61,339 nt of DNA, from positions 1 through 61,339 of the forward strand of contig JAFSWB010000001.1 of assembly GCA_017444735.1 (NCBI GenBank), read 5' to 3'. This document shows, piece after piece, positions 1,385 to 57,484 of this stretch. How positions within the stretch are numbered: the stretch's first letter is position 1; each line of letters opens with the position of its first letter. Position numbers and translations under genes: made by a program. This stretch comes from Clostridia bacterium (GTDB lineage: Bacteria; Bacillota; Clostridia; Oscillospirales; CAG-272). Below the pieces are notes generated by a model. It saw only the letters and a list, made by a program, of their open reading frames with translations. It was not told the DNA's origin and did no database searches.

Positions 1385-1765
1385 CTATCTCGCCTCCGCG
1401 TCAGCCCCGGCGTCGCCCGACGTGATCCTCACGGTCAGCCGGTGCGGCATACAGACGATGGGGTACGGTCTCTCCCCCGACGCCCAGCCGGCCGCGACGC
1501 ATATTTTGTCGGGACAGTCCGCCGCCGTCACCGCTATCATTCCCGGTCTTACGGTGACGGTGTTCCTGTCGCCGTCTTCGTCTCCGATCTCGATTTTGTA
1601 CTCTTCCGTCACGCGGTCGAGGTCGATCCTGTAAAGGACCTTTCCGTCCTTCACGATCTCCGCCGTCGTTCCGGCGGGGAGAAAAAAGCGGACGGCGATC
1701 GCGGCGGCCGCCGCGACGGCGGCGATCACGGCGATTATGATTATCCACGTTCTCGTCTTTATCAT
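1385..1765 (-). CDS. NusG domain II-containing protein, membrane-anchored
   Basis: 126 residues: one N-terminal transmembrane segment (about 6-28), then an extracytoplasmic beta-rich domain with the family pattern VTAADCPDKICV (about 78-89) and a C-terminal PYPIVCMPHRL block. Despite the name this family is not a transcription factor. It is found exported in Firmicutes beside ApbE and Gx proteins. The start overlaps the apbE stop in an ATGA. The stop is TAG, one of only three terminal TAGs I find in this window, and it is followed immediately and in frame by the ATG of the Gx gene. Confidence 0.8.
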   Translation of the reverse strand: MIKTRTWIIIIAVIAAVAAAAAIAVRFFLPAGTTAEIVKDGKVLYRIDLDRVTEEYKIEIGDEDGDRNTVTVRPGMIAVTAADCPDKICVAAGWASGERPYPIVCMPHRLTVRITSGDAGADAEAR

Positions 1766-4809: not shown

Positions 4810-5373
4810 ATGGCGGAAAAGATATACATAGATCAGGGGCACAACCCGGTCAACCCGAATGCGGGAGCGGAGGGGAACGGTCTGCGGGAGCAGGACCTCG
4901 TTTACACGATAGGGCAGAGACTGTCGGAAATACTGAGAGCGGGAGGGCTTGAGACGAGACTGTCGCGGCCGTCTCCGACGACCCAGCTCGGAACGTCCGT
5001 CGCGTCGTCGCTCGCCGCGCGCGTCAACGACGCGAACGCGTGGGGCGCGGACTGGTTCGTCAGTCTCCACACCAACGCGTCGAGCATCGTATCGGCGAGC
5101 GGGTCGGAGTGCTTCGTTTACAGCGAGACGAGTCCGGCTTACGTTCTCGCGGAGAATATCGCGTTCCAGCTCAACGCCGCCACGGGGCTCCGGGACAGGG
5201 GCGTCTTTACCCGCCCGTCGCTCTACGTCCTGAGGCGGACGGCGATGCCCGCCGTCCTCGTCGAGCTCGGATTCATCACGAATCCGTACGACGCGGAGCT
5301 GATGCGGTCGTCTCCCGAGATCTTCGCCGCGGGCGTCGCGAACGGCGTGTTCGCGTATCTCGGGCTTCTGTAG
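4810..5373 (+). CDS. N-acetylmuramoyl-L-alanine amidase (Amidase_3), no signal peptide
   Basis: 187 residues, a stand-alone Amidase_3 zinc hydrolase. IYIDQGHNP supplies the first His, NGLREQDL the zinc Glu, SLHTNA the second His and LVELGFITN the catalytic Glu. It cleaves the amide between MurNAc and the stem peptide. The ATG at 4810 was chosen because AAAGGAG precedes it by 6 bases; an in-frame upstream extension has no SD. There is no signal peptide or cell-wall-binding repeat, so its route to the wall is unclear. It ends in TAG just 9 bases before the convergent trmD. Confidence 0.85.
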   Translation: MAEKIYIDQGHNPVNPNAGAEGNGLREQDLVYTIGQRLSEILRAGGLETRLSRPSPTTQLGTSVASSLAARVNDANAWGADWFVSLHTNASSIVSASGSECFVYSETSPAYVLAENIAFQLNAATGLRDRGVFTRPSLYVLRRTAMPAVLVELGFITNPYDAELMRSSPEIFAAGVANGVFAYLGLL

Positions 5374-15003: not shown

Positions 15004-15152
15004 TATTTTGGGGAGAAATATGAGGCGGTTTTGCGCCGCCGGGACGGACTAAAAGGCGCGCGGAACACCGTTTGTGAAAAAATACCAAAAAACACGCAAA
15101 ATCTCCTTGAAATTTCTTACAATATTTTTTCGGACTATTTTGAAAGTTGTTA

Positions 15153-15181
15153 TTGAAAGGAAATCGCGTTTATGATATAAT
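15153..15181 (+). promoter_or_regulatory. Promoter of the S10-spc-alpha superoperon
   Basis: TTGAAA (15153-15158), 17-bp spacer, TATAAT (15176-15181) in an AT-rich upstream region with A/T tracts resembling an UP element. The predicted start is near 15188. Confidence 0.75.
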
Positions 15182-15187
15182 ACTGCT

Positions 15188-15455
15188 GTTTGATGCGCGA
15201 TGATGCGGGAGGTTGCCGCAAGTCCCGTACTGTCAGGGGACGGCGGGGAATTTCCGCGGAGTATGTCCGGCAGAAGCCGGGCGGGGAACACGCGTTTTTG
15301 ACGCGTTCCTGACTCTGACTGCGAGGGCATTTCTGCCCTTATCGAACCGGGATCTGACTATACGTCGATCTCGGCGCACTTTCGGGGAAAAAAGGAACGC
15401 ACGGACGCGTGAACAGCGCCTCAGAAAAAATCCATATTATTTAGGAGGCAAAATC
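15188..15455 (+). promoter_or_regulatory. Long structured leader of the S10 operon
   Basis: About 267 untranslated bases separate the promoter from rpsJ. The leader is GC-rich with several potential hairpins, for example ACGCGT around a TTTTG loop followed by GACGCGT (15289-15307) and AGGGCATTTCTGCCCT (15324-15339). Autogenous leader control by L4 is known for S10 operons in some bacteria; here that is an inference from length and position only. SD TTAGGAGG lies 8 bases before the ATG. Confidence 0.5.
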
Positions 15456-15767
15456 ATGGCAGCAAGTGAAAAGATCAGGGTAAGGCTCAAAAGTTACGAG
15501 CACTCTCTCGTCGACACGGCGGCGGCGAAGATCGTCGACATCGCGAAGAGAAACGGCGCGGAAGTTTCCGGACCCGTTCCGCTTCCCACCGACAAGGAGA
15601 TCGTAACGATCCTCCGCGCCGTCCACAAGTACAAGGACAGCCGCGAGCAGTTCGAGCAGAGAACTCACAAGAGACTTATCGAGATCAAAAAGCCCTCGCA
15701 GAAGGTCGTCGAGGCCCTTATGTCGGTGGAACTTCCCGCCGGCGTCGATATCGACCTCAAGCTGTAA
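15456..15767 (+). CDS. rpsJ: 30S ribosomal protein S10
   Basis: 103 residues: [11 protein letters not shown] start, VSGPVPLPT loop and RTHKRLIEI. First gene of the superoperon. In the ribosome it is part of the 30S head and also partners NusB in antitermination. The start at 15456 is fixed by the AGGAGG 8 bases upstream. An in-frame extension to 15213 is untranslated leader. Confidence 0.97.
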
Positions 15768-15935
15768 GGCAAAAAACCACGCACCAACGGGTAGATCTCA
15801 CATACCCTTTGGAAATAACCAACCCGTACAGAGCGATAAAGGATGAGATCCCCTCCGGATCAGAACCCGAAGCTTGATGGCGGTGAGGTCAAGTTGGCCG
15901 CGAGCCAACCAATAACCTTTTAAGGAGGAAAAACG
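15768..15935 (+). promoter_or_regulatory. Structured rpsJ-rplC spacer
   Basis: This 168-nt spacer is long for an operon whose other junctions are mostly 0-20 nt. It contains the hairpin GTTGGC-CGCGA-GCCAAC (15893-15909). It also has a GGGTA segment (15789-15793) that can pair either with TACCC (15803-15807) or, as ACGGGT, with ACCCGT (15822-15827). These two pairings exclude each other. No promoter is evident. Confidence 0.4.
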
Positions 15936-16565
15936 ATGAAGAAAGGAATCATCGGCAAAAAGCTGGGGATGACGCAGATCTTCGACGAGAACGGATTCGT
16001 TATCCCCGTGACGGTCATCGAAGCGGGTCCATGCCCCGTTACACAGAAGAAGACCGCCGAAAACGACGGATACGAAGCGGTTCAGCTCAGCTTCGAGGAT
16101 ATCCGTGAAAAACTCGTCAGCAAACCGAGAGCGGGACATTTCAAGAAGGCGGGCGTCAGCCCGAAGCGTCATCTCAAGGAATTCCGTCTTGAGGACGCGG
16201 CTTCGATGAACGTGGGCGACGTGGTTGCCGTCGATACCTTCGCCGCAGGCGACAAGGTCGACGTTACGGGCACCAGCAAGGGCCACGGATATTCGGGCGC
16301 GGTCAAGAGATGGGGCTTCCACACTCTGAAGATGACTCACGGTTCCGGTCCCGTCCACCGTCAGGCAGGTTCCATGGGAGCCAACTCGACTCCGTCCAGG
16401 ATCTACAAGAACAAGAAGATGGCGGGTCAGTACGGTAACGAGCAGGTCACCGTCCTGAATCTCGAAGTCGTTAAAGTCGATGCGGAAAAGAACCTTATCG
16501 CCGTCAAGGGCGCCGTTCCCGGATCCCGCGGCAATATCGTGTTCATCCGCGACAGCGTCAAATAA
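15936..16565 (+). CDS. rplC: 50S ribosomal protein L3
   Basis: 209 residues: start [14 protein letters not shown], the central extension near [14 protein letters not shown] that reaches the peptidyl-transferase centre, and the C-terminal [24 protein letters not shown] lies 7 bases before the ATG. Confidence 0.97.
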
Positions 16566-16585
16566 GTCGGAAGGAGGAAGAAAAA

Positions 16586-17212
16586 ATGCCAGAAATCAAA
16601 GTTGTGAACATGGCGGGCAGCGAAGTCGGTAAGATCAACCTTTCCGATAAAGTATTCGCGGCGCCTGTGAACGGTGCAGTCCTCCACGCGGCTGTCAAGA
16701 ATTACCTCTCCAATCAGAGGCAGGGCACTCAGTCAACGCTGACCAGAACCGAAGTCTCCGGCGGCGGCAAGAAGCCGTGGCGTCAGAAGGGGACGGGCCG
16801 CGCGAGACAGGGTTCCACCAGAGCTCCCCAGTGGACTCACGGCGGAGTCGCTCTCGGGCCGAAGCCCCGTTCATACAGAACGAAGCTCAACCGCAAGGTG
16901 AGACGTCTTGCGATCACCGGGGCGCTTTCCTCTAAGGTCGCCGAGAACGAGATGATCGTCGTCGATTCGATCGCGACGGAGGAATACAAGACGAAGACGA
17001 TGGTGAAAATGCTCTCCGACGTCGGCGCGGCGAAGAAATCCCTCGTCGTGCTCCCGACCCGGGACGACAAGGTTTACCGCAGTCTCTCGAACATCCCCGG
17101 CGTGGTCGTCGCATACCCGAACACCCTTAACGCGTACGACATCCTCAACTGCGGATCTCTCGTGATCGCAGAGGACGCGGCGCGCAAACTCGAGGAGGTG
17201 TACGATAAATGA
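16586..17212 (+). CDS. rplD: 50S ribosomal protein L4
   Basis: 208 residues with the exit-tunnel loop KKPWRQKGTGRARQGSTR (about 63-80) and a globular domain ending in the RKLEEVY helix. L4 can act as autoregulator of S10 operons in other bacteria. Its end overlaps the rplW start by 4 bases (ATGA). Confidence 0.97.
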   Translation: MPEIKVVNMAGSEVGKINLSDKVFAAPVNGAVLHAAVKNYLSNQRQGTQSTLTRTEVSGGGKKPWRQKGTGRARQGSTRAPQWTHGGVALGPKPRSYRTKLNRKVRRLAITGALSSKVAENEMIVVDSIATEEYKTKTMVKMLSDVGAAKKSLVVLPTRDDKVYRSLSNIPGVVVAYPNTLNAYDILNCGSLVIAEDAARKLEEVYDK

Positions 17213-17502
17213 AATTCGCACAGGATATCATTCTGAAGCCGATCATCACCGAGAAATCGATGGATATGATCGCCGACAAGAAATACACCTTCAAGGTCGC
17301 TCCCGACGCGACGAAGCCCGAGATCGCGAAGGCGGTCGAGGAGCTCTTCGGCGTCAAGGTCGCGGCTGTCAACGTGATGAACATGAAGAGCAAACCGAAG
17401 AGAGTGCGTTTCGCCCTCGGCAGAACGGCCGAATGGAAGAAAGCGATCGTCACTCTGAAGCCCGATTCAAAGACCATCGAGTTCTTTGAGGGTATGAACT
17501 GA
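17209..17502 (+). CDS. rplW: 50S ribosomal protein L23
   Basis: 97 residues: DIILKPIITEKSMDM start and the MKSKPKRV loop. It lies at the tunnel exit and docks trigger factor and SRP. Overlaps rplD by 4 bases. Confidence 0.97.
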   Translation: MKFAQDIILKPIITEKSMDMIADKKYTFKVAPDATKPEIAKAVEELFGVKVAAVNVMNMKSKPKRVRFALGRTAEWKKAIVTLKPDSKTIEFFEGMN

Positions 17503-17520
17503 TGAGGGAGGAGAAAGAAG

Positions 17521-18348
17521 ATGCCAGCTATCAAATATAAACCGACGTCTCCTGCAAGAAGACATATGTCAGTGCCCTCCTTCGAGGAAGTAACGAAGTC
17601 CACTCCCGAAAAGAGTCTTCTTGCCAAGAAGAAGAAACACTCCGGCCGCAACAGCTACGGCAGGATCACCGTCCGTCACAAGGGCGGCGGGAACAAGCAG
17701 AAGTACCGCATCATCGACTTCAAGAGAGAAGACGGCAAAAAGACGGTCATCGGCGTTGAGTACGATCCGAACAGGACCGCCTATATCGCCCTTCTTCAGG
17801 ATGAGAACGGTAAGAAGAGCTACGAGGTCGCGTCCGTCGGCGTTACCGACGGCGTCGTGATCTCCTCCGGCGCGGATTCCGATATCAAGCCCGGCAACAC
17901 TCTGCCGCTTGCGAATATCCCCGTCGGTACCTTCATCAACAACATCGAGCTCTACCCCGGCAAGGGTGGACAGCTCGTCCGGTCCGCCGGCGTCCAGGCG
18001 CAGCTTATGGCAAAGGAAGGGGATATGGCGCAGGTCAGACTTCCCTCCGGCGAGGTCCGCTACATCCGCATCGGATGCCGCGCGACGATCGGCCAGATCA
18101 GCAACGTCGAGCACGACACCGTCAAGATCGGTAAAGCCGGAAGACGCCGCCACATGGGCGTCCGTCCGACGGTCCGCGGTTCGGTCATGAACCCCTGCGA
18201 TCACCCGCACGGCGGCGGCGAGGGCAAGAGCCCGATCGGCCGTCCGGGCCCTGTGACTCCCTGGGGCAAGCCCGCTCTCGGATATAAGACGAGAGACAAG
18301 AAGGCAAGGACCGACAAATTCATCGTCAAACGCAGAAACGACAGGTAA
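17521..18348 (+). CDS. rplB: 50S ribosomal protein L2
   Basis: 275 residues with RRHMSV at the N-terminus, [15 protein letters not shown], and the conserved peptidyl-transferase loop [20 protein letters not shown] near 222-241, including the key His. Full length and normal. Confidence 0.97.
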
Positions 18349-18364
18349 GAAGGAGGCAGCATAA

Positions 18365-18646
18365 ATGAGCAGAAGCTTGAAAAAAGCGCCTTTCGTAGAA
18401 GAAAAACTCTTTGCGAGGATTTCCGCTATGAATGAAAAGGGCGAAAAGAAAGTGCTCAAGACCTGGTCAAGAGCCTCTACCATTTTCCCGGAGTTTATCG
18501 GCCACACGATAGCCATTCACGACGGCAGACGTCACATCCCGGTTTATATCACCGAGGATATGGTCGGCCATAAGTTGGGCGAATTCGCTCCGACGAGGAC
18601 CTTCAAGGGTCACGCCGGATCGAAGACCTCCAACAACGGTAAGTAA
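18365..18646 (+). CDS. rpsS: 30S ribosomal protein S19
   Basis: 93 residues: [14 protein letters not shown] start, [20 protein letters not shown] centre, [15 protein letters not shown] end. Standard for the family. SD AAGGAGG precedes. Confidence 0.97.
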
Positions 18647-18667
18647 TGAGGAGAGGGAGGAAAAGCA

Positions 18668-19003
18668 ATGGAAGCAAGAGCTACTGAAAAACACATCCGC
18701 ATCTCCCCTCGTAAAGTCAAGGTCGTTCTGGATCTGATCAGGGGCAAGAGCTACGCCGAGGCGGTCGGTATTCTGAGGAATACCCCGAAGGCGGCGAGCG
18801 AGCACGTTCTGAAACTCCTCCGCAAGGTCGCCGCCGACGCGGAGCACAATTTCGAGATGGATCCCGAGGCCCTCTACGTCTCCGAGTGCTACGTCGGAGC
18901 GGGCGCCACGCTGAAGCGGATCATGCCGAGAGGCAAGGGCTCCGCCGACAGGATCCTGAAGAGAACGAGCCACATAACCGTCGCGCTGACGGAAAAACAG
19001 TGA
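18668..19003 (+). CDS. rplV: 50S ribosomal protein L22
   Basis: 111 residues. RISPRKVKVVLDLIRGK near the start and the exit-tunnel hairpin GAGATLKRIMPRGKGSADRI (about 80-99) are diagnostic. Confidence 0.97.
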   Translation: MEARATEKHIRISPRKVKVVLDLIRGKSYAEAVGILRNTPKAASEHVLKLLRKVAADAEHNFEMDPEALYVSECYVGAGATLKRIMPRGKGSADRILKRTSHITVALTEKQ

Positions 19004-19017
19004 GGAGGTAGTCGAAA

Positions 19018-19983
19018 GTGGGACAGAAAGTAAATCCGCACGGCCTCAGAGTCGGTGTTATCAAGAACTGGGATTCCAGATGGTACGCCTCCGATGAGAA
19101 ATTCGGCGACATCCTCGTGGCTGACTACAACATCAGACAGTATCTGAAGAAAAAGCTGTTTGCAGCCGGTATCCCGAAGATCGAGATCGAGAGGGACAAC
19201 ACCGGCCGCGCGAGAGTGTTCATCCACTGCGCGAAGCCCGGTCTCGTTATCGGACGCGGCGGCGCCGAGATCGACGCTCTCCGCCTCGACCTCGAGAAGA
19301 GAATGGGCGTTCCCGTCTCCGTCAACGTCGTCGAGGTCAAGCACATCGACCTTTGCGCTCAGCTCGTCGCGGAGTCGATCGCCTCTCAGCTCGAGAGACG
19401 TATCGCTTTCCGCCGCGCGATGAAGCAGGCCATCGGCCGCACCATGCGCATGGGAGCGAAGGGCATCAAGATCGCGGTCTCCGGCCGTCTCGGCGGAGCG
19501 GATATCGCGCGCAGCGAGCACTATCATGAAGGAACCATTCCGCTGCAGACTCTCCGTGCCGATATCGACTACGGATTCTGGGAAGCGGACACCACCTACG
19601 GCAAGATCGGCGTTAAAGTCTGGATCTACAACGGCGAAGTCCTCTCCGAGGTCGCCCGCACCGGCGGACAGAGAGAAGACAGACGTCAGAACAGAAGACC
19701 GGGCGACCGCCGTGATCGCCGTGACGGCGACCGCAGAGGCGGAGACCGCAGAGGCGGAGACCGCAGAGACGGCGACCGCAGAGGCGGCGACCGCAGGGGC
19801 GGCGACCGCAGAGACGGCAGACCCGGCGGCAGACGCGACGGCGGCTTCGAGCGTAAAGAGGGCAGGGGCTTCAGAGATCCCGGCTTCAGAAGAGACGCTG
19901 CGAAGGCGCAGAGCGCTCCCCGCGAAGAGGCTCCCGCCGCGGACGCACCCAAGGAAGGAGGCGTGACCGATGTTAATGCCTAA
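19018..19983 (+). CDS. rpsC: 30S ribosomal protein S3 with a C-terminal Arg/Gly/Asp repeat extension
   Basis: 321 residues, versus about 220 for typical S3. Residues 1-218 are a normal S3: [12 protein letters not shown] start, KH domain with [31 protein letters not shown] and VKVWIYNGE. From about 219 a basic low-complexity tail begins, with tandem GDRRGG/GDRRDG hexads (roughly 235-270) and then a Glu/Ala-rich end. The start is GTG after GGAGGT. The last codons overlap the rplP start by 14 bases. The tail could bind RNA; that is inference. Confidence 0.95.
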
Positions 19984-20401
19984 GAGAGTGAAGTACAGAA
20001 GGGTACAGAGAGGACGTATGAAGGGCGTCGCCACCCGCGGCAATAAGCTCGCGTACGGCAGCTACGGCCTCATCGCCTCCGAACCCGCCTGGATCACCGC
20101 AAATCAGATCGAGGCCGCCCGTATCGCGATGACGAGATATATTCGCCGCGGCGGTCAGGTCTGGATCAAGATATTCCCTGACAAGCCCGTTACGAAGTAG
20201 CCGCTTGAAACCCGCATGGGTTCCGGTAAAGGCGCTCCCGAATTCTGGGTAGCCGTCTTCTAGCCCGGCAGAGTGCTCTTCGAGATGGACGGAGTGACCG
20301 AGGACATCGCCCGTGAAGCTATGCGTCTCGCCATGCACAAGCTTCCGATCAAATGCCGTTTCGTCACCCGTGATCAGCTTGAAGCAGAAGTGGAGGGATA
20401 A
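19970..20401 (+). CDS. rplP: 50S ribosomal protein L16 interrupted by two in-frame UAG codons
   Basis: Reading in one frame from ATG 19970 to TAA 20399-20401 gives 143 codons that match L16 throughout. The sequence begins [11 protein letters not shown], continues [16 protein letters not shown] and [13 protein letters not shown], then TAG (20198-20200, codon 77), then [20 protein letters not shown], then TAG (20261-20263, codon 98), then [10 protein letters not shown] and [15 protein letters not shown]. From memory of Bacillus and E. coli L16, codon 77 aligns with Lys and codon 98 with Lys or Gln, each one base from TAG. There is no frameshift and no other decay. L16 is near-universal and important for A-site tRNA placement. 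Either UAG is decoded here, or the sequence is wrong, or an intact copy exists elsewhere. Without decoding, only 76 residues are made. Confidence 0.9.
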
Positions 20402-20404
20402 GCT

Positions 20405-20593
20405 GTGAGAACGTCAGAACTCAGAAATAAATCGGGCGCTGAACTCGAAGCGATGCTGAAGGATCTCAAGGGAGAGCTCTTCAACCTTCGTTTCCAGCAC
20501 GCCATCAACCAGCTTGACAATCCCCACAAGATTTCCGACACGAAGAAAGAAATCGCAAGGGTCATGACCATCATCAGCGAGAAGAACGCGTGA
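20405..20593 (+). CDS. rpmC: 50S ribosomal protein L29
   Basis: 62 residues, two-helix protein: ELRNKSGAELEAMLKDLKGE and LFNLRFQHAINQLDNP, typical length. GTG start 3 bases after the rplP stop, so it may be translated by coupling to ribosomes that finish rplP. Confidence 0.95.
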   Translation: MRTSELRNKSGAELEAMLKDLKGELFNLRFQHAINQLDNPHKISDTKKEIARVMTIISEKNA

Positions 20594-20607
20594 GGGGGAT
20601 ATAAAAG

Positions 20608-20871
20608 ATGGAAAACACAAACCGTAATTTGAGAAAGACCAGAGTGGGCCATGTCGTCAGCGACAAGATGGAGAAGACGATCGTCGTCGCCATCGAGGAC
20701 AACGTAAAGCACCCCACGTACGGTAAGATCATCAAACGCACCTCCAAGATCCACGCGCACGACGAGAACGACGAATGCCGTATCGGCGACAAGGTCGAGG
20801 TCATGGAGACCAGACCGCTCTCCAAGACGAAGAGATGGAGACTCGTGAGGATCATCGAGCGCGCGAAATAA
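20608..20871 (+). CDS. rpsQ: 30S ribosomal protein S17
   Basis: 87 residues: [20 protein letters not shown] start, [13 protein letters not shown] and [20 protein letters not shown]. Normal. Confidence 0.96.
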
Positions 20872-21010
20872 GATCCCGAAGGGAACGTTCCGTCGGCTGA
20901 AGCGCGGCGGACGAAAAGCCCCCCTCCGCGCCGGGACACGGCTGACGGAGGAAAGAGAACCGCGCAAAATCGTGGTTCCGTTATAAAATCCAAAGGGAGG
21001 ATGTTCTTAA
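20872..21010 (+). other. rpsQ-rplN spacer with hairpins
   Basis: A 139-nt spacer, with no gene. The hairpin GAACCGCG-CAAAAT-CGTGGTTC lies shortly before the rplN SD (AAAGGGAGG). It is at the position where the spc part of the superoperon begins in other bacteria. I see no clear promoter. Confidence 0.4.
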
Positions 21011-21379
21011 ATGATTCAGCAGCAATCATATATGAAGGTTGCCGACAACACGGGCGCTAAGGAGCTTATGTGCATCCGCGTGCTCGGCGGCACCGGAAGA
21101 CGGTACGGCAACATCGGCGACGTCGTCGTCTGTACCGTCAAGAAGGCGTCACCCGGCGGCGTCGTCAAAAAGGGCGACGTTGTCAAGGCGGTGATCGTCA
21201 GAAGCGTTAAAGGTCTTCGCCGTCCCGACGGTTCCTACATCAAGTTCGATGAGAACGCGGCGGTCATAATCGGCGATGACAAAAACCCGAAGGGGACCCG
21301 TATTTTCGGGCCCGTCGCCCGCGAGCTCCGCGAGCACGAGTACACGAAGATCCTGTCTCTTGCGCCGGAAGTTCTTTGA
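21011..21379 (+). CDS. rplN: 50S ribosomal protein L14
   Basis: 122 residues: [17 protein letters not shown] start, [11 protein letters not shown] and [13 protein letters not shown]. Exactly the family length. Confidence 0.97.
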
Positions 21380-21394
21380 TCGGAGGGCAGCGTG

Positions 21395-21721
21395 ATGAAA
21401 AAACTTCATATCAGAAGAGACGACACCGTCATGGTTGTCTCCGGCAACGACCGCGGCAAGAGCGGAAAAGTCCTCGAGGTCTCCCCGAAAGAGGGAAAAG
21501 TGATCGTGCAGGGCGTCAACATCGTCAAGAAGCACGTCAAACCGAGACCCCCGCAGGAAAACGGCGGTATAGTCGACGTCGAGGGCGCTCTTTACGCGTC
21601 CAAGGTCCAGATCGTCTGCCCGTCCTGCAAAAAGCCCACCAGGGTCGCCCACAAGTTCGTTGAAAAGAACGGCAAGACCAAGAAGGTCCGCACGTGCGCC
21701 AAGTGCGGAGCGGAACTTTGA
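21395..21721 (+). CDS. rplX: 50S ribosomal protein L24
   Basis: 108 residues with a KOW motif ([21 protein letters not shown]), [13 protein letters not shown], and a C-terminal zinc-ribbon-like pair CPSCKKP / [11 protein letters not shown] at 21395 chosen over the adjacent GTG because of spacing to GGAGG. Confidence 0.96.
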
Positions 21722-21738
21722 GAGGGGAGGTAAGAGCA

Positions 21739-22278
21739 ATGTCAAGACTCAGAGAAATGTATAAGAACGAAGTTGCTCCCGCCCTTATGAAGAAGTTCGA
21801 GTACAAGAGCGTGATGCAGATCCCGAAGATCGACAAGGTCGTCATCAACGTCGGCGCGGGCGAAGCGAAGGAAAATTCCAAGGTCATCGACGCGGTCATC
21901 GAGGATCTCACCAAGATCGCCGGTCAGAGGGCCGTCCCCACCTACGCCAAGAAGTCTGTCGCAAACTTCAAAGTCCGTCAGGGCATGAAGATCGGCGCGA
22001 AGGTCACTCTCCGCGGCGAGCGTATGTATGAGTTTATCGACAAACTCTTCAACTTCGCTCTTCCCCGCGTTCGCGACTTCAAGGGAATCAACCCCGAGGC
22101 GTTCGACGGCAGAGGAAACTACGCTCTCGGACTCAAAGAGCAGCTCATTTTCCCCGAGATCGAGTATGAAAAGGTCGACAAGGTCCGCGGAATGGACATC
22201 TGCTTCGTCACGACCGCTCCGACCGACGAGGAAGCAAAAGAACTGCTCACTCTCATGGGCGCTCCTTTCGCAAACTGA
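21739..22278 (+). CDS. rplE: 50S ribosomal protein L5
   Basis: 179 residues: [19 protein letters not shown] start, [31 protein letters not shown] and [15 protein letters not shown]-type end. Contacts 5S rRNA and P-site tRNA. Start fixed by GGGAGG 8 bases upstream. Confidence 0.97.
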
Positions 22279-22323
22279 CGAAGGACTCCGAATACTAAGA
22301 AAGAAAGGCATAGGTCATTCAGA

Positions 22324-22509
22324 ATGGCTAAAAAAGCGATGATCAACAAGCAGCAGAGAAAGCAGAAATTCTCGACCAGAGAATACAATCGCTGCAAGAT
22401 CTGCGGCAGACCTCACGCTTATCTCCGCAAATACGGTATCTGCCGTATCTGCTTCAGGGAGCTTGCCTACAAGGGAGAGATCCCCGGCGTCAGAAAGGCG
22501 TCCTGGTAA
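22324..22509 (+). CDS. rpsZ: 30S ribosomal protein S14, zinc-binding (type Z)
   Basis: 61 residues with four zinc Cys at 24, 27, 40 and 43 ([10 protein letters not shown] and [10 protein letters not shown]). This is the short C+ form usual in Gram-positives. GVRKASW end. Confidence 0.96.
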
Positions 22510-22684
22510 GAGCGGGAGGAGAATGGTGCCGGGGGGCTGCGGCTCCGCGGCAGCGGTAAGGGATCTTTTCCGACCCCGCGGTTCCGCGCCGATAGGAAGC
22601 CTCAGGGCTTAACCGTCGGCGAGCGGCCGGCGCTTCAGCGTCCGGCAGCAAGAATTTTACTTGCATGACAGGAGGTAATCGAAA
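22510..22684 (+). other. rpsZ-rpsH spacer, GC-rich and structured
   Basis: A 175-nt spacer, the longest in the operon, with no gene. Candidate hairpins include GCTGCGGCTCCGCGGCAGC (22537-22555) and GCCGGCGCTTCAGCGTCCGGC (22627-22647). S8 binds its own operon mRNA in other bacteria, so this is a reasonable place for S8 autoregulation, but that is inference. Confidence 0.4.
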
Positions 22685-23083
22685 ATGCAGATTTCAGACG
22701 TTATTGCGGATATGCTGACAAGGATCAGAAACGCAAGCAGCGCGAAGCATGAGACCGTCGACGTCCCCGCTTCCAATATGAAGAAGCAGATCGCGGACAT
22801 TCTTCTCCGCGAGGGCTACATCAAGGGAGTTCAGGTGATCGAAGACGGCAAGCAGGGCATCATCAGGATCGCCCTCAAGTACGAGACGGGCAAGAAGAGC
22901 GTTATCCACGGTCTCCGCCGCGTTTCGAAACCGGGTCTCCGGATCTACTCCAACTGCGATGATATGCCGAAGGTCCTCGGCGGCCTCGGCGTTGCCATCG
23001 TCTCAACGTCCAAGGGCATCATGACCGACAAAGAAGCAAGACGCGAACACGTCGGCGGCGAGATCCTCGCCTTTGTCTGGTAA
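22685..23083 (+). CDS. rpsH: 30S ribosomal protein S8
   Basis: 132 residues: [15 protein letters not shown] start, [12 protein letters not shown] and the C-terminal [23 protein letters not shown]. Normal. Confidence 0.97.
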
Positions 23084-23101
23084 GGGAAGGGGGATACTGA
23101 A

Positions 23102-23641
23102 ATGTCAAGAATAGGAAGATCTCCCGTTACCGTTCCCGCGGGCGTCACCGTCAACGTTGACGATGCGAACCGGGTCACCGTTAAGGGACCGAAAGGCGAG
23201 CTTTCGTTCGTCGCTCCCCACTCCATGACCGTCAAGGTCGACGGCGCGGTCGTTACCGTGAGCCGTCCCGACGACGCGAAGGAGCACCGCTCGCTCCACG
23301 GCATGACGAGAACGATCATCAACAATATGGTCGTCGGCGTCTCCGAGGGCTTCTCGAAGAAGCTCCAGATCGTCGGAGTCGGATACAGAGCCGCCAAGGA
23401 AGGGAAGAAACTCGTTCTCAACCTCGGTCACTCTCATCCGATCTACTTCGAGGAAAACGAGAAGGTTTCCTTTGAAGTTCCGGACGCGAACACGATCATA
23501 GTCAAGAGCTATGACAAGCAGGTTTGCGGACAGATCGCCGCGGAGATCCGCTCCAAGAGACCTCCGGAACCGTACCTCGGCAAGGGTGTCAAGTATGAAA
23601 ACGAGCACATCCGCCGCAAGGCCGGTAAGACCGGTAAGTAA
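23102..23641 (+). CDS. rplF: 50S ribosomal protein L6
   Basis: 179 residues: [14 protein letters not shown] start, [20 protein letters not shown] and [16 protein letters not shown]. Normal. Confidence 0.97.
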
Positions 23642-23655
23642 GGGAGGGACATCAA

Positions 23656-24015
23656 ATGGTAAACAAAAGAGATAAGAACATTCAGCGTCTGAAAAGACAC
23701 GTACGTGTCCGCGCCAAGATCAGCGGCACCCCCGAGCTTCCCCGTCTTTGTGTCTACCGTTCCAACGCCCACATCTACGCTCAGATCATCGACGACGTAA
23801 ACGGAGTTACCCTCTGCGCGGCGTCCTCGAACGAGCAGGGCTTCGAAGGGCTCGGCAGCAACAAGGAAGGCGCGAAGAAGGTCGGCGCCAAGATCGCGGA
23901 ACGCGCTCTCTCAAAGGGTATCGAAAACGTCGTTTTCGACCGCGGAGGATACATCTATCACGGGCGTGTATCGGAGCTGGCAAGCGGTGCGCGCGAGGGC
24001 GGACTCAAGTTCTGA
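23656..24015 (+). CDS. rplR: 50S ribosomal protein L18
   Basis: 119 residues with the Arg/Lys-rich N-terminus, [18 protein letters not shown] and [14 protein letters not shown]. Binds 5S rRNA. Confidence 0.97.
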
Positions 24016-24094
24016 GCCTCACGCAGACCGATGCCGGAAGGCCGGTTTGTACACTGTTTAATCAAAAAATTAAACATTTCATAGGAGATTTACG

Positions 24095-24598
24095 ATGTTA
24101 AGAAATTTCAATCCCGAGGAGCTTGACCTCAAGGAAAAGCTCGTCGTAGTGAACCGTGTATCGAAGACCGTCAAAGGCGGTCGTATCCAGCGCTTCGCCG
24201 CCCTTATGGTGGTCGGAGACGAAAACGGTCACGTCGGCTACGGTCTCGGCAAAGCCGCCGAGGTCCCGGAAGCCATCCGCAAGGGCATCGAGGATGCGAA
24301 AAAGAACATGATCGAGGTCGCCATGCGCGACACGACGATCCCCCACGAGGTGATCGGAGTGTTCGGCGCCGGCAGAGTTCTTCTGAAGCCTGCCGCAAAA
24401 GGTACCGGAATCATCGCGGGCAAAACGGTCCGTATCGTTCTCGAGCTTGCGGGTATCAAGAATATCAGAAGCAAGTGCCTCAGATCCAACAATCCCGTGA
24501 ACGTGGTCAAGGCCACGTTTGAGGGACTCGGCAGCCTCAGGACTGTCGAACAGGTCGCCAAGACGCGCGGTATCAGCACGGAACAGGTCAAAGGCTGA
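24095..24598 (+). CDS. rpsE: 30S ribosomal protein S5
   Basis: 167 residues: [38 protein letters not shown] and [18 protein letters not shown]. Contains the spectinomycin-site loop [12 protein letters not shown]. Confidence 0.97.
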
Positions 24599-24615
24599 GA
24601 GGGAGGTTATTGATT

Positions 24616-24795
24616 ATGGAAAACGTAAAAGTAACTCTCGTCAAGAGTCTCATTGCGCAGAAGCCTGCGACGAAAGCGACCGCGAAGTCACTCGGCCTTC
24701 GCAAAATCGGCGATTCGATCATTCACGAGGCCGGTCCGGTTATCGACGGTAAGATCAAGGTCATCTCGCACCTCGTCACCGTCGAAAAGGCATGA
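24616..24795 (+). CDS. rpmD: 50S ribosomal protein L30
   Basis: 59 residues with [18 protein letters not shown] and [17 protein letters not shown] at 24616 follows GGGAGGTT. An upstream TTG is less likely. Confidence 0.95.
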
Positions 24796-24809
24796 AAGGA
24801 GGATCAAGG

Positions 24810-25253
24810 ATGAAGCTCCATGAACTGTCACCCGCTCCGGGTTCCGCAAAGAAAGCATGGCGCAAGGGCAGAGGCCCGGGTTCCGGCAACGGCAAGACCG
24901 CCGGCAAGGGACATAAAGGTCAGAACGCTCGTTCCGGCGGCGGCGTCCGTCCGGGATTCGAAGGCGGCCAGCTCCCTCTGTACAGGAAGATCCCGAAGAG
25001 AGGGTTCAAAAACCACTTTGCAAAGAATTACGCCATCGTCAATGTCAAAACGCTTAACGAACGCTTCTCTGACGGCGAAACGGTCAATCTTGACGCGCTG
25101 CTCGAGAAGGGCGTGATCGGTAAACCACTGGACGGACTCAAAGTCCTCGGTAACGGAGAAATCGAAAAGAAACTGACCGTTCAGGCTGCGATTTTCTCGG
25201 GAAGCGCAAAGGAGAAGATCGAGGCCGCCGGTGGAAAGGCCGAGGTGGTATAA
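24810..25253 (+). CDS. rplO: 50S ribosomal protein L15
   Basis: 147 residues: [20 protein letters not shown] start, Gly-rich [20 protein letters not shown] and [12 protein letters not shown]. The start was moved to the ATG after GGAGGATCAAGG. Confidence 0.97.
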
Positions 25254-26582
25254 GTGTTTCAGACGATCAAAAACGCTTGGAAGCTTGCCGATCTCAGAAA
25301 GAAGCTGCTCTACACGCTTCTCATCGTGTTCATTTACAGAATAGGCACGGCTCTTCCGGTCCCTTACATGGACGCGAACGCTCTCAGCAACCTCGCGTCT
25401 CAGATGTCGGGCTCCGTGTTCCAGTATCTGAACATTCTGTCCGGTAACGCGCTGTCAAGAGCTACGATCTTCGCTCTCGGCATTCAGCCGTACATCACGG
25501 CGTCCATTATCCTGCAGCTCCTCTGCGTCGCCATTCCCGCGCTGGAAAGGCTGTCCAAGGAGGGCGAGGAAGGAAGAAAGAAGATCAACCAGATCACCAG
25601 ATACACGACCGTCGCTCTCGCTCTTATTTCGGCATTCGGTTACTACCAGCTGCTGAAATCGCAGGGCGCCATCACGGACAAGAGCTGGTTCCCCATGATC
25701 GTCATAATCATGAGCTACTGCGCCGGTTCCGCGCTGGTCATGTGGCTGGCTGAAAAAATCAACGAGAACGGTATCGGAAACGGTATCTCCATCATCCTCT
25801 TCGCGAACATCATCTCCCGCGGACCCGCTATCGTAAGCGGATTCATCGGGTACATCCGCGGTACGGCCACGTACCAGACGGCTGACGGCTCGACTGCTAC
25901 GATCCCTCAGTGGCTCGGCATCATCATCGCTGTCGTCGGACTCGTCGTCGCGTTTGCGATGATCGCGTTCATCGTGTGGATGACCAACAGCGAGCGCAGA
26001 CTTCCCGTCCAGTACGCGAAGAAGGTCGTCGGAAGAAAGATGTACGGCGGACAGAGCTCCAATCTGCCCATCAAAGTGAATATGACCGGCGTTATGCCGA
26101 TCATCTTCGCGAACTCCATCATCACGGTTCCGCAGACTATCGCGATGTTTACGGGTCAGCCGAAGAGCGCGTTCTGGAGAGGCTTCCTTGCTCTCTTCAA
26201 CAGCGACAGCTGGTTTTACGCCGCGCTGACGCTCGTGCTCCTCGTAGCGTTCTCATACTTCTATATTGCGATTTCCTTTGACCCCGTCGAGGTATCCAAC
26301 AATATCAAGTCGCAGGGCGGCTTTATCCCCGGTATCCGTCCGGGACGTCCGACCGCCGACTATATCAAGAGGGTACTGAACAGAGTGACGTTCATCGGCG
26401 CGATTTGCCTCGCGGTCGTCGCGGTCCTTCCGCTTCTCGCGAACATAATCGCCGGCGGCGCTCTCAGCTCCATCGCTTTCGGAGGATCATCGATCATCAT
26501 CGTGGTCGGCGTCGTCCTCGAAACGATCCGCGAGATCGAAGCTCAGATGACGATGAGGCACTACAAGGGCTTCCTTGAGTAA
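25254..26582 (+). CDS. secY: Preprotein translocase channel subunit SecY
   Basis: 442 residues with ten transmembrane helices. Family blocks: PYMDANALSNL, ALGIQPYITASIILQLL, GNGISIILFANI and GFIPGIRPGRPTADYI. Forms the protein-conducting channel with SecE/SecG. GTG start directly after the rplO TAA, with SD GAGGTGG within rplO. Confidence 0.97.
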   Translation: MFQTIKNAWKLADLRKKLLYTLLIVFIYRIGTALPVPYMDANALSNLASQMSGSVFQYLNILSGNALSRATIFALGIQPYITASIILQLLCVAIPALERLSKEGEEGRKKINQITRYTTVALALISAFGYYQLLKSQGAITDKSWFPMIVIIMSYCAGSALVMWLAEKINENGIGNGISIILFANIISRGPAIVSGFIGYIRGTATYQTADGSTATIPQWLGIIIAVVGLVVAFAMIAFIVWMTNSERRLPVQYAKKVVGRKMYGGQSSNLPIKVNMTGVMPIIFANSIITVPQTIAMFTGQPKSAFWRGFLALFNSDSWFYAALTLVLLVAFSYFYIAISFDPVEVSNNIKSQGGFIPGIRPGRPTADYIKRVLNRVTFIGAICLAVVAVLPLLANIIAGGALSSIAFGGSSIIIVVGVVLETIREIEAQMTMRHYKGFLE

Positions 26583-26598
26583 AAGCGGGGATAAGAGA

Positions 26599-27240
26599 AT
26601 GGCAAGAAAGATCAATCTGATCCTTCTCGGCGCTCCCGGCGCCGGAAAGGGTACGCAGGCTGAGATCATTTCCGAGAGGTACTCTATTCCCGCTATATCG
26701 ACCGGCGCGATCATCCGCGCGGCGATAGCGTCCGGCTCAGAGATGGGCAGGAAGGTCAAGGAGTACACCGAACGGGGCGATCTCGTTCCCGATGAAGTCG
26801 TGATCGAAATAATCAAAGAGAGACTCAGTCTCCCCGATTGCGAAAACGGTTTCATTCTCGACGGGTTCCCGAGAACGGTCCCTCAGGCGGAGGCGCTCGA
26901 ACGCCTCGGCGTCGAGATCACGGACGTGATCTCGATCGAGGTCTCGGACGAGGACATCATGGAGAGAATGAGCGGACGTCGCGTCTGCCGTGCGTGCGGC
27001 GCCACCTACCACGTCAAGTACAAGCCGTCTCCCAACGGTGAGATCTGCCGCTGCGGCGAAGAGCTCACCAGACGCGCCGACGACGATCCCGAAGTCGTCG
27101 CGTCGAGACTGAAGATCTATCACGAGCAGACCGAGCCCCTCAAGAAGTTCTATGAGGAGCGCGGAAAACTCAAGATCGTCATCGGTCAGGAAAAGCTTGA
27201 AGACACGACAAGACTGACGTCCGAAGCGCTCGGTGACTGA
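26599..27240 (+). CDS. adk: Adenylate kinase, zinc-LID type
   Basis: 213 residues. P-loop GAPGAGKGT at 11-19, DGFPRT at 88-93 and a long LID with CRAC (130-133) and CRC (150-152), typical of Gram-positive zinc-binding Adk. Converts ATP + AMP to 2 ADP. ATG at 26599 was chosen over a TTG that overlaps secY. Confidence 0.96.
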   Translation: MARKINLILLGAPGAGKGTQAEIISERYSIPAISTGAIIRAAIASGSEMGRKVKEYTERGDLVPDEVVIEIIKERLSLPDCENGFILDGFPRTVPQAEALERLGVEITDVISIEVSDEDIMERMSGRRVCRACGATYHVKYKPSPNGEICRCGEELTRRADDDPEVVASRLKIYHEQTEPLKKFYEERGKLKIVIGQEKLEDTTRLTSEALGD

Positions 27241-27278
27241 CAGGGAGCGAACCGGTCGGAGAACAACAGGGCGAATAT

Positions 27279-28028
27279 ATGATCGTTATTAAGAATTCCG
27301 AACAGTTGAAGAAGATGCGGGTCGCGGGAAGGATAACCGGCGAGGCGATCGTCCTTGCGGGCGAGGCGGTGCGCGAAGGCGTCACCACGAAGCACCTTGA
27401 CGATATCATCCGCCGCCACATTGAAAAGTGCGGCGCCCGTCCCTCGTTCCTGGGGTACGGCGGTTTTCCGGGAAGCGCCTGCATCTCCGTCAACGAACAA
27501 GTCATCCACGGGATACCGTCGCCGGATATTATCCTGAAGGAGGGCGATATCGTCAAGATCGACGTAGGCGCCTTCAAGGACGGATTCCACGGCGACAGCG
27601 CCAACACCTTCGCGGTCGGGAAGATCTCTCCCGAGGCGCAGCGTCTGATCGACGTGACGAAGGAGTCGTTCCGGCTCGGAGCCGCGCACGCGGTCCCGGG
27701 CGGCAGGCTCGGCGACGTCGGCCACGCGATCCAGGAGCACGTCGAGGCGGCGGGATTCTCCGTCGTCAGGAAGTACGTCGGCCACGGCGTCGGCGAGGAT
27801 CTCCACGAGGACCCGAACGTACCGAACTACGGTACGCCGGGACGCGGGGTCCGGCTCTGCCGAGGAATGGTGATCGCCATCGAACCGATGGTGAACGCCG
27901 GGACGTACGACGTGAAGGAGCTCCGCGACGGCTGGACCGTCGTGACGCGCGACGGGAAGCTGTCCGCTCACTACGAGCACACCGTGGCGATCACGGACGA
28001 CGGACCCGAGTTTCTCACAATGGTATGA
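27279..28028 (+). CDS. map: Methionine aminopeptidase type I
   Basis: 249 residues. Metal ligands Asp95, Asp106, His169, Glu202 and Glu233, with substrate His77, sit in KIDVGAFKDG, GDSANTF, VGHGVG, AIEPMV and YEHTVAI. Removes initiator Met. Stop overlaps the next start (ATGA). Confidence 0.97.
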   Translation: MIVIKNSEQLKKMRVAGRITGEAIVLAGEAVREGVTTKHLDDIIRRHIEKCGARPSFLGYGGFPGSACISVNEQVIHGIPSPDIILKEGDIVKIDVGAFKDGFHGDSANTFAVGKISPEAQRLIDVTKESFRLGAAHAVPGGRLGDVGHAIQEHVEAAGFSVVRKYVGHGVGEDLHEDPNVPNYGTPGRGVRLCRGMVIAIEPMVNAGTYDVKELRDGWTVVTRDGKLSAHYEHTVAITDDGPEFLTMV

Positions 28029-28372
28029 GGGACGGTGTGACGAGACCGAATCCCTACCTCGGAGCGGTCGTCCGCTCCGTTGCGGGGAGAGACAGACGGC
28101 GCGTCTTCATCGTCACGGACGTGACGCTTGAGGGCGGAAGGGTGATGCTGACCGTCGCGGACGGTTCGCTTCGCCGGATCTCGGACGGAAAGCGCAAAAA
28201 CGCGCGTCACGTGAAGATCATCGCAGCCGTCACGGATGAGGAATGGAAAAGGATCGCGGAGCGCCCCGACGACGAAGTCGTGAGGGAAACGCTCGCGGGA
28301 TACGATCCGCTGATAAAATCGGCGGACGACGGAACAATTTATCGCCCGGATCGCGGCGGAACGGAGAATTGA
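28025..28372 (+). CDS. KOW-domain RNA-binding protein
   Basis: 115 residues. An N-terminal KOW-like segment ([19 protein letters not shown], about 12-30) and [11 protein letters not shown] further on are seen in the small proteins encoded between map and infA in many Clostridia. A role in ribosome assembly or translation is suggested only by position. It overlaps map by 4 bases. The C-terminal half is more divergent and acidic. Confidence 0.8.
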
Positions 28373-28376
28373 TTAT

Positions 28377-28598
28377 ATGCCAAAGGATGACGTGATCGAA
28401 TTTGAAGGTACGGTCGTTGAGGCGCTGCCGAACGCCACCTTCAAGGTGAAGCTTCCGAACGATATGATCGTTACCGCTCATATTTCCGGAAAGCTCAGAA
28501 TGAACTATATCAAGATTCTTCCCGGTGACAACGTCAAGATCGAGGTTTCGATCTACGATCCCACCAAGGGACGGATCACGTGGAGGACGAAGGGCTGA
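28377..28598 (+). CDS. infA: Translation initiation factor IF-1
   Basis: 73 residues, S1-like OB fold: [34 protein letters not shown] and [10 protein letters not shown]. Family length. Confidence 0.97.
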
Positions 28599-28658
28599 CG
28601 CGAGACCGTCTCTCCCCGGAGTCCGTGGCACAAATTTCGAGAAAGGTGGTAAAAAACT

Positions 28659-28772
28659 GTGAAAGTAAAACCTTCCGTAAAGAGAATTTGCGACAAGTGC
28701 AAGATCATCAAGCGCCATGGCAAAGTCATGGTGATCTGTGAGAATCCGAAGCACAAGCAGAGACAGGGCTGA
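28659..28772 (+). CDS. rpmJ: 50S ribosomal protein L36, zinc form
   Basis: 37 residues, too short for many gene finders: start GTG after AAAGGTGG, then [18 protein letters not shown] and [12 protein letters not shown]. Zinc ligands Cys11, Cys14, Cys27 and His32 are all present. Confidence 0.95.
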
Positions 28773-28812
28773 GCCCCTGACTTTCAGGAACAGAAAGAGG
28801 TGAAACGAAAGA

Positions 28813-29181
28813 ATGGCTCGTATATCAGGTGTTGATATTCCGAACAACAAACGGATCGAGTACGCGCTGACCTACATCTACGGTATCGGTCTGAAGAGCT
28901 CTCAGGATATCCTGGCGAAGACCGGAATCAATCCGGATACCCGCGCGAAGGACCTGACCGAGGACGATATCGCGAAGCTCCGTGATGAGATCGAGAACAA
29001 CTACAAGGTCGAAGGTGAACTTCGCCGTGAAGTCGCTCTGAACATCAAGCGTCTCATCGAGATCAACTGCTATCGCGGAATCCGTCACAGAAAGGGACTG
29101 CCCGTCCGCGGACAGAGGACCAAGACGAACGCGAGAACGAGAAAGGGTCCCGCAAAGACCATCGCCAACAAGAAAAAGTAA
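28813..29181 (+). CDS. rpsM: 30S ribosomal protein S13
   Basis: 122 residues: [20 protein letters not shown] start, [20 protein letters not shown] and Lys-rich end. Normal. Confidence 0.97.
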
Positions 29182-29199
29182 AAGGAGACAGGAGAGCAA

Positions 29200-29595
29200 A
29201 TGGCTAAGGTTGCAAAGAAAACCATCAAGAAGCGCCGCGATAGAAAGAATATCGAAAAAGGCGCTGCCCATATCCGCTCGACCTTCAACAACACTATCGT
29301 TACCATCACCGATACGGCGGGTAACACGGTGGCTTGGTCGTCGTCCGGTTCTCAGGGCTTCAAGGGCTCCAGAAAGAATACTCCTTACGCCGCGCAGACC
29401 GCTGCGGAAGCTGCCGCGAAAGGCGCTATGGAACATGGTATGAAGACTGTCGAAGTGTTCGTCAAAGGTCCCGGTAACGGACGTGAGGCGGCGATCCGCG
29501 CTCTTCAGACCGCTGGGCTCAACATCACTCTCATCAAGGACGTGACGCCGATCCCGCACAACGGATGCCGTCCGCCCAAGCGCAGAAGAGTATAA
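29200..29595 (+). CDS. rpsK: 30S ribosomal protein S11
   Basis: 131 residues: [34 protein letters not shown] and the C-terminal [18 protein letters not shown]. Confidence 0.97.
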
Positions 29596-29615
29596 ACTAA
29601 CAGGAGGAATTTGAT

Positions 29616-30242
29616 ATGGCAAGATATACAGGCGCGTCCTGCAAGCTCTGCCGCAGAGAGGGAAGAAAGCTCTTTCTCAAGGGCGAGCGCTGCCTCAGCG
29701 ACAAGTGTGCCGTCGTCAGACGTTCGACCGTTCCCGGCCAGCACGGTATGGGTCGTAAAAACGTCAAGGAGTACGGTCTCCAGCTGAGAGAGAAGCAGAC
29801 TGCAAGACGCTACTACGGTGTTCAGGAAAAGCAGTTCAAGGGTTACTACGTCAAGGCCGACAAACAGGAAGGCGTCGCGGGTGAAAACCTCCTCTCCATC
29901 CTCGAGAGACGTTTCGACAACGTCGTTTACAGAATGGGCCTCGCATCCAGCCGCAAGGAGGCAAGACAGTTCGTCCGTCACGGACACTTCACCCTCAACG
30001 GCAAGAAGGCGAACATTCCGTCCATCATCACCAAGGTCGGCGACGTCGTCGCTCTCAAAGAGGGAAGCAGATCGCTCGAGAAATTCAAGGGCCTGCTTGA
30101 AACCGCCGATACGGTCATCAAGCCGAAGTGGCTTGACGTCGATGAAGACTGCCTCACCGCGAAGGTCGTCGCCATCCCGCAGAGAGATGACGTTGACTTC
30201 CCGTTCGAAGAGCAGCTTATTATCGAGCTTTACTCCAAATAA
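29616..30242 (+). CDS. rpsD: 30S ribosomal protein S4, zinc-binding
   Basis: 208 residues with zinc Cys 9, 12, 26 and 31, the S4 RNA-binding domain LASSRKEARQFVRHGHF and C-terminal IIELYSK. Primary 16S binder. Confidence 0.97.
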   Translation: MARYTGASCKLCRREGRKLFLKGERCLSDKCAVVRRSTVPGQHGMGRKNVKEYGLQLREKQTARRYYGVQEKQFKGYYVKADKQEGVAGENLLSILERRFDNVVYRMGLASSRKEARQFVRHGHFTLNGKKANIPSIITKVGDVVALKEGSRSLEKFKGLLETADTVIKPKWLDVDEDCLTAKVVAIPQRDDVDFPFEEQLIIELYSK

Positions 30243-30342
30243 TAACCTGACAATCGGAGGATGCGTACGCACCGCACAAATTGCGCTCCCCTTTGTCGGG
30301 GCGTTGACATGAATAGTGCGAAAAATTGTAGGAGGGTTATTG

Positions 30343-31314
30343 ATGATAGAAATAGAGAAGCCGAATATTGCGACGATGGACCTGAGCGAAGATGGTAAAG
30401 CAGGAAAGTTTATCATCGAGCCTCTCGAGAGGGGCTACGGAGTCACCCTCGGTATATCGCTGCGCCGAGTTCTGATCAACTCACTTCCCGGCGTCGCGGT
30501 TTCAAGAATTAAGATAGACGGTGTTCTTCACGAGATCTCCACGATCCCCGGGATCGTCGAGGACGTGCCCGAGATCGTCCTGAACGTCAAGGGAATAGTC
30601 GCGAGACTGTTCGTCGACGGCTCGAAGACGGTCGTTATCGACACGACGGGAGAGCGTGAGATCACCGCGGAAGACATAAAGACGGACGCCGACGTCGAGA
30701 TCCTGAATCCCGAGCATCACATCTGCACCGTCGGTGAGAACGTGAGATTCTATATGGAGATCACATTCGATCACGGCAGAGGATACGTTTCCGGAGAATA
30801 CAACAAGCAGGTATATCTGGAGAACAACGGCGGGATCCAGGCGCCGGTCGGCACGATCTTTACCGATTCCAACTACACTCCCGTGTATCACGTCAACTAT
30901 ACCGTACAGAACACCAGAGTCGGAAGCAGCACCGATTTCGACAAGCTGACGCTCGAAGTTCTTACGAACGGCGTGATTCTCGCGAAGGAAGCGATTTCGC
31001 TTGCCGCCAAGATACTCAACGAACATCTCAACTTGTTTGTCGATTTGTCAGACGAGGCCAAGAATGCGGAGATCATGATCGAGCGCGAGGAGACCATAAA
31101 GGAAAAGGTCCTTGAGATGACCATTGAGGAGCTTGACATGTCCGTCAGAAGCTTCAACTGTCTGAAGCGCGCGGGCATCGATACGGTCGAAGATCTGATC
31201 GGAAAGACCGAAGAGGATATGATGAAAGTCAGAAACCTCGGAAAGAAATCGCTGGAGGAAGTCATCACGAAGCTTGCCGCTCTCGGACTCGAACTCAAGA
31301 AAGAGGAAGAGTGA
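30343..31314 (+). CDS. rpoA: RNA polymerase alpha subunit
   Basis: 323 residues. The N-terminal dimerisation domain has [20 protein letters not shown] and [17 protein letters not shown]. The C-terminal DNA/activator-binding domain starts near 245, with [17 protein letters not shown] and [13 protein letters not shown] at 30343 follows AGGAGGG; an earlier GTG lies upstream of this SD. Confidence 0.97.
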
Positions 31315-31382
31315 CGCGGGAGGTCAGGCACAAGCGGTCCGGTATCGGACCGGACAATCTTTAGCAAAAGGAGGACAACACA

Positions 31383-31757
31383 ATGCCAGGAACAAGAAAA
31401 CTCGGCAGACCGACCGCGCACAGAAACGCTATGCTTCGCGGACTGGTCACGTATCTTCTCGAAAACGGCTCTATTGAAACGACGCTGACGAGAGCAAAGG
31501 AGATCCGCTCGATGGCCGACCGTATGGTCACCCTCGGAAAGAAGAACACCCTTGCGGCAAAACGTCAGGCGCTCTCATACATCACCAAGAGAGAAGTGGT
31601 AACGAAACTCTTTGACGAGATCGCTCCCTCGTTCGAGGACAGAAACGGCGGTTACACCCGCGTTTACAAGATGGGTCCCCGTCGCGGCGACGGCGCTGAG
31701 ATGGCCGTTATCAGACTTGTCGGATACAAGTTGCCCGAGAAGAAGGAAAAGAAATAA
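31383..31757 (+). CDS. rplQ: 50S ribosomal protein L17
   Basis: 124 residues: [21 protein letters not shown] start and [15 protein letters not shown] end. Last gene of the superoperon. Confidence 0.97.
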
Positions 31758-56698: not shown

Positions 56699-57484
56699 AT
56701 GAAAAAGACCGAAAAAGCGACCGTGCGGTTTACCGACGAGAAAAACGACGACTTTGCGGGAAACAACATAAAAGCGGAGCCGATCGGACCGGATTTCAAG
56801 TACGTCCGGCGCGGCTTCCTCTGGCGCGCGGCGGAGTTTTTTATGTACCGGATCGTCGCGACCCCGCTCGTTTTCCTGATGGGGAAGCTCCTCTACGGAT
56901 TGAGGATAAAGAACAGAAGGGCGCTCCGCCGGATCAGGGGGACGGGTTATTTCCTCTACGGCAATCACACGCAGAATATGATGGACGCGTACACTCCGTC
57001 GCTCTCCGCGTTCCCGAAGCACGTCCATATCGTGACGAGCCCGGAGGCGGTGTCGATCAAAGGCATCCGCGCGCTTGTCTCCATGCTCGGCGGGATCCCG
57101 GTCCCGGACGGAGTAAAGGGGATATCGCCGTTCCGCTCCGCGATCGAGGAGCGGATAAAAGAGGGTCGGGTCGTCGCGGTCTATCCCGAGGGGCATATAT
57201 GGCCGTGGTACAATAAAATCAGAGATTTTTCCGACGTCTCGTTCGATTACCCCGTGACGCTCGGCGTCCCGTGCGTCGCGTTCGTGACTACGTTCAGAAA
57301 AAGGAAGATCATAAAGAACGGTCACCCCTATCTGACCGTCACGCTGTCCGACCCGTTTTATCCGGACTCCGGCGTCCCGAGGGCGGAGGCGCGGCGGGAC
57401 CTCCGCGACCGCGTTCACGCGTTTATGACGGACGTCGCCTCCGACCCGGACAATTACGAATTCATCAAATACGAAAAAGCTTAG
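56699..57484 (+). CDS. 1-acyl-sn-glycerol-3-phosphate acyltransferase (PlsC) family
   Basis: 261 residues. Acyltransferase motif I is the variant NHTQNMMD (His followed by Asp six residues later, one more than the usual HX4D). Motif III is YPEGHIWPW. One membrane helix lies near 50-70. Likely acylates a lipid in the same pathway as the glycosyltransferase 5 bases upstream. Ends with TAG, one of only three terminal TAGs in the window. Confidence 0.8.
   Translation: MKKTEKATVRFTDEKNDDFAGNNIKAEPIGPDFKYVRRGFLWRAAEFFMYRIVATPLVFLMGKLLYGLRIKNRRALRRIRGTGYFLYGNHTQNMMDAYTPSLSAFPKHVHIVTSPEAVSIKGIRALVSMLGGIPVPDGVKGISPFRSAIEERIKEGRVVAVYPEGHIWPWYNKIRDFSDVSFDYPVTLGVPCVAFVTTFRKRKIIKNGHPYLTVTLSDPFYPDSGVPRAEARRDLRDRVHAFMTDVASDPDNYEFIKYEKA

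Follow-up and report, generated by a model that had tools for sequence, protein, structure and literature searches.

The rplP gene, which encodes ribosomal protein L16, carries two in-frame TAG codons in the window, by which we mean the whole analyzed stretch of 61,339 nucleotides. Comparison with related genomes makes it very probable that the draft consensus is wrong at both TAGs and that no recoding is involved. Although the sequence does contain the stops, the living organism most likely lacks them, and L16 is most likely uninterrupted there. Were they genuine, the cell would rely on UAG suppression to make one of its core ribosomal proteins, a remarkable situation. The case indicates that a one-directional patch of draft consensus error can imitate stop-codon recoding, and that comparison with sister genomes, using the spectrum of changes, the invariant sites and the true TAG terminators, can separate error from recoding without reads. 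Positions of the relevant features are given in Table 1.

Table 1. Features of the window that bear on the interrupted rplP gene
Feature	Position	Strand	Evidence or comparison
rplP (ribosomal protein L16) frame, two interruptions	19970..20401	+	Translation, Pfam, sole copy found
TAG, codon 77, in frame	20198..20200	+	Lys in 86/86 relatives
Codon 92, Phe in window	20243..20245	+	Tyr in 78/86 relatives, Phe in 7/86, Gln in 1/86
Codon 97, Phe in window	20258..20260	+	Val in 86/86 relatives
TAG, codon 98, in frame	20261..20263	+	Lys in 86/86 relatives
Patch of 71 bases	20191..20261	+	Purine-to-T in 6/7 differences from three agreeing sisters
Amidase_3 gene, true TAG terminator	4810..5373	+	Pfam; TGA at the same residue in sister G001
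NusG_II gene, true TAG terminator; ATG of next gene directly after	1385..1765	-	Pfam; G001 ends at the matching residue, TGA
Acyltransferase gene, true TAG terminator	56699..57484	+	Pfam; G001 ends at most 5 codons away, TAA

Translation of the rplP frame bore out what had been read from the letters alone: a full L16 terminated by TAA, free of frameshifts and indels but reading TAG at codons 77 and 98, in an operon whose adjoining ribosomal genes are intact. Read through with Lys, the product matched the Pfam profile Ribosomal_L16 with 193 bits over profile positions 1-132 of 132. Its conservation was assessed in 86 relatives, comprising 80 loci found by protein, whose named members are mostly uncultured Clostridia, and six sisters from the same genus. 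All of them have Lys at residue 77, Val at 97 and Lys at 98, and nowhere else in L16 does the window show a residue never seen among the 86. Two stops noticed among the relatives proved to be natural ends at residue 141. The sequence-only reading had assigned Lys or Lys/Gln to the TAG sites; Lys stands, and Gln is unseen in these 86 relatives. It had also described the flanking residues as perfectly conserved, which is wrong at residue 97, beside the second TAG, and at residue 92.

The same comparison was extended to 21 genes of the ribosomal region, in which 669 positions are near-invariant, that is, identical in all but at most one of the 80 loci. Of these positions, 14 are different in the window, nine of them in common with at least one sister. 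The five found in the window only are rpsS 51, rpsQ 55 (Gly in five of the six sisters) and rplP 77, 97 and 98. The rplP changes thus lie at otherwise invariant sites and have no counterpart in relatives, as would be expected of spurious stops.

Sister reading frames (137 out of 170) could be aligned to 48,651 bases of the window. With four cases of differing starts or ends set aside, rplP, whose stops showed against three sisters, was the only gene with true internal stops in these bases, so that its double interruption exceeds chance; the sister frame continues for 67 residues past the TAG of the window. Several other apparent stops were examined and rejected. What looked like an internal TAG between 1385-1765 and 872-1384 marks the boundary of NusG_II with a separate gene, Hpre_diP_synt_I, where the sister carries TGA. 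A TGA at 50314 is upstream of the conserved DUF1846 part, in a frame begun too far upstream, and a stop at 874, near the end of an alignment, is an end difference. Stops at 20984 and 21008 precede the rplN start at 21011, and that at 21377 precedes the rplX start at 21392.

Within the genus, L16 was matched in seven of 12 genomes, and stops are present in this genome only. In the family, a match was obtained in 255 of 395 genomes searched, the other 140 being left out of the count; genomes with matches weaker than E = 8.2e-58 were searched a second time. Within the matched stretch, where stops are reported, this genome alone of the 255 has an internal L16 stop; some matches are partial (G126, G165, G251, G293, and G208, which begins at position 9) and other kinds of break are possible there. 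Conserved programmed readthrough, with UAG kept in related species, was thus not encountered in any of the six sisters or the 254 other family genomes. Both a look at rplP in related genomes and a count of internal TAGs in other genes had been proposed on reading the sequence, and neither yielded a second case. In one of the partial matches (L141, G293:C211:24870-25124) the similarity ends at profile position 87 inside a longer open frame, as a frameshift would give.

Forty positions of rplP differ from the base agreed by three close sisters. Changes from a purine to T account for six of the seven differences in 20191-20261 as against one of the 33 in the rest of the gene (Fisher 1.2e-5, with patch boundaries that were chosen after the patch was seen). 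Outside the patch, 27 of the 33 differences are at third codon positions. A scan was performed over the interval 15110-31794, using the 12,954 sites for which two or more of the three sisters were present and agreed; runs of seven differences were evaluated for each of eight classes of change against 2,000 shuffles. It contained 1,109 differences, 90 of them purine-to-T, and the patch was the densest purine-to-T run (p = 0.001, or about 0.008 when corrected for the eight classes). The lowest value for the other seven classes was p = 0.14, and no second patch of comparable strength was found in the scanned stretch.

Two of the changes in the patch create the TAGs, one turns Val97 into Phe and one turns Tyr92 into Phe. 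These four, at 20198, 20244, 20258 and 20261, affect bases otherwise common to all six sisters. The remaining two purine-to-T differences, at 20191 and 20236, are at third codon positions that vary also in more distant sisters; they are therefore weaker evidence and may be ordinary divergence. Three of the six purine-to-T differences start from G.

A one-directional run of this kind over 71 bases is best fitted by a single bad read or one damaged template strand, and we infer a technical cause from it. A thinly covered stretch of about 71 bases in rplP might have been called from such a read or strand. Copying across lost purines, with A placed opposite them, would produce changes from A or G to T in the plus strand, and a local error on one strand could in this way have entered the consensus and given both the TAGs and the changes at Val97 and Tyr92. 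Insertion of A opposite abasic sites during copying, the A-rule, is described in PMC4167244. The suggestion in the sequence-only reading of two sequencing or assembly errors is in this respect the best supported of its proposals, although a single one-directional patch speaks against two independent events. According to PMC11017572, spurious internal stops in bacterial assemblies result from low coverage and from low-quality reads, the latter having a larger effect on internal stops than on frameshifts. The rplP case resembles the spurious pseudogenes described there in having stops without a frameshift, in a gene expected to be intact and in a draft assembly; it differs from that description in that the changes are one-directional and clustered within 71 bases, the remainder of the compared sequence appearing clean. 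Two points count against an error, namely that the patch is isolated in the scanned stretch and that other members of the family rarely show an internal stop in L16 (0 of 254). Both TAG sites read GGCTA on the minus strand, and an Illumina motif error was considered, since PMC4787001 describes error motifs ending in GG; in a window of 58% G+C the shared motif is no proof of such an error.

An allele that is really interrupted appears unlikely. It would be a broken copy of the operon in the species or in part of its population, the working rplP being unassembled or present in other strains. The window is contig 76 of a draft whose 97 contigs add up to 1,762,720 bases; this draft is 80.67% complete and leaves room for a second copy, and two other genomes of the family, G233 (L136, L144) and G119 (L137, L145), each gave two intact L16 matches of full length that lie on different contigs. 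These pairs may be either a duplication or contamination. In this draft, however, the L16 profile has one match, and the intact second rplP that had been raised as an explanation was not found in its 80.67% by profile or by DNA search; the six L16-bearing genus sisters have one match apiece. Moreover, rplP outside the patch looks constrained, with its differences mostly at third positions, and decay should bring many kinds of change along the gene rather than almost exclusively purine-to-T within 71 bases.

Reading of UAG as an amino acid, Lys or other, by a suppressor tRNA, a code change or readthrough, is highly improbable, even though both TAGs replace Lys codons that are invariant in the relatives and TAG is a rare terminator in this genome. 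Gene ends were sampled in 226,943 bases with a simple codon-usage gene finder. The finder predicted 206 genes whose stop falls in the sample, of which 114 end in TGA, 82 in TAA and 10 in TAG, one of the last being the front part of rplP. Downstream of the nine other TAG-ended genes the coding score is negative in eight (only slightly, -0.8, for 56699-57484), and in the remaining one the TAG is immediately followed by the ATG that starts the next gene. A Pfam scan of eight of these nine genes gave a match for seven. For all three TAG-ended genes of the window that were tested, sister G001 ends at or close to the matching residue with TGA or TAA (Table 1). UAG is therefore an ordinary working stop here.

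The decoding apparatus agrees with this. One gene of the RF-1 family was found in the draft, coding for an intact 355-residue protein with GGQ, whose motifs are judged to be those of RF1 and not RF2. RF2 was not found in the 80.67%-complete draft. This fits an incomplete assembly, because eight of the 11 genus sisters show two RF-1 family genes (two show one, and one shows none), and the RF2 sequence is probably missing from the draft. In one of these sisters a gene expected to be intact is likewise interrupted: the matched part of the weaker of two RF-1 family matches (G007:C46:4429-4755) contains a single in-frame TAA, perhaps through an error like that proposed for the rplP TAGs.

The draft yielded 27 tRNAs, an incomplete set compared with the 40 of G001, which leaves some room for a decoding tRNA. 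No CUA anticodon was present among the 27 of the 80.67%-complete draft (25 typed by ARAGORN and two from an Rfam alignment; the latter, cut off at contig ends, have anticodons UCC and UUC) or among the 40 of the 96%-complete sister. For PylS, a single match of 19.7 bits was obtained in this incomplete genome against a cut-off of 178.15, and none above it; matches at that loose level occurred in 13 of 14 control genomes, with one above the cut-off. The readthrough, suppressor tRNA or pyrrolysine listed among the possibilities of the sequence-only reading, to be checked through RF1, a CUA tRNA and the pyl genes, is contradicted by these results: UAG is a working stop, RF1 is intact, internal TAGs are confined to rplP among sister-supported genes, and neither a CUA tRNA nor PylS above cut-off was found in the incomplete draft.

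The rplP gene does share with UAG reassignment and pyrrolysine use an in-frame UAG in a conserved gene, but differs from them in that one gene only is affected here, RF1 is present, UAG is used as a stop, and neither a decoding tRNA nor PylS was found in the incomplete draft. UAG in many conserved genes, UAG no longer ending genes, and loss or change of RF1, three marks of a reassignment, were all absent. Suppression would also leave the changes at Val97 and Tyr92 unexplained. A narrower version, in which the bases are real and UAG is read as Lys at the two L16 sites by a suppressor tRNA absent from the assembly, with RF1 kept and L16 output tuned by competition between suppression and termination, has an equally slight chance of being correct.

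Just as little credence can be given to a real strand-biased burst of mutation, through lesion bypass in the cell or a retroelement-type mutator. The shared direction of the changes is what lesion bypass following the A-rule (PMC4167244) would give. Against such a burst, two stops in an essential gene should be lethal in the absence of another copy. The rplP gene is essential in model bacteria. Diversity-generating retroelements are known to change adenines only, and a target of such an element was rejected because half of the purine-to-T differences start from G, one of them (20258) at a base common to the six sisters.

Upstream, the frame of rpsC (S3) overlaps the start of rplP. Its C-terminal part (window 19680-19983) forms a long repetitive tail rich in Arg, Gly and Asp; the core of the protein is about 97% identical to that of close sisters, and the tail lies outside those matches.
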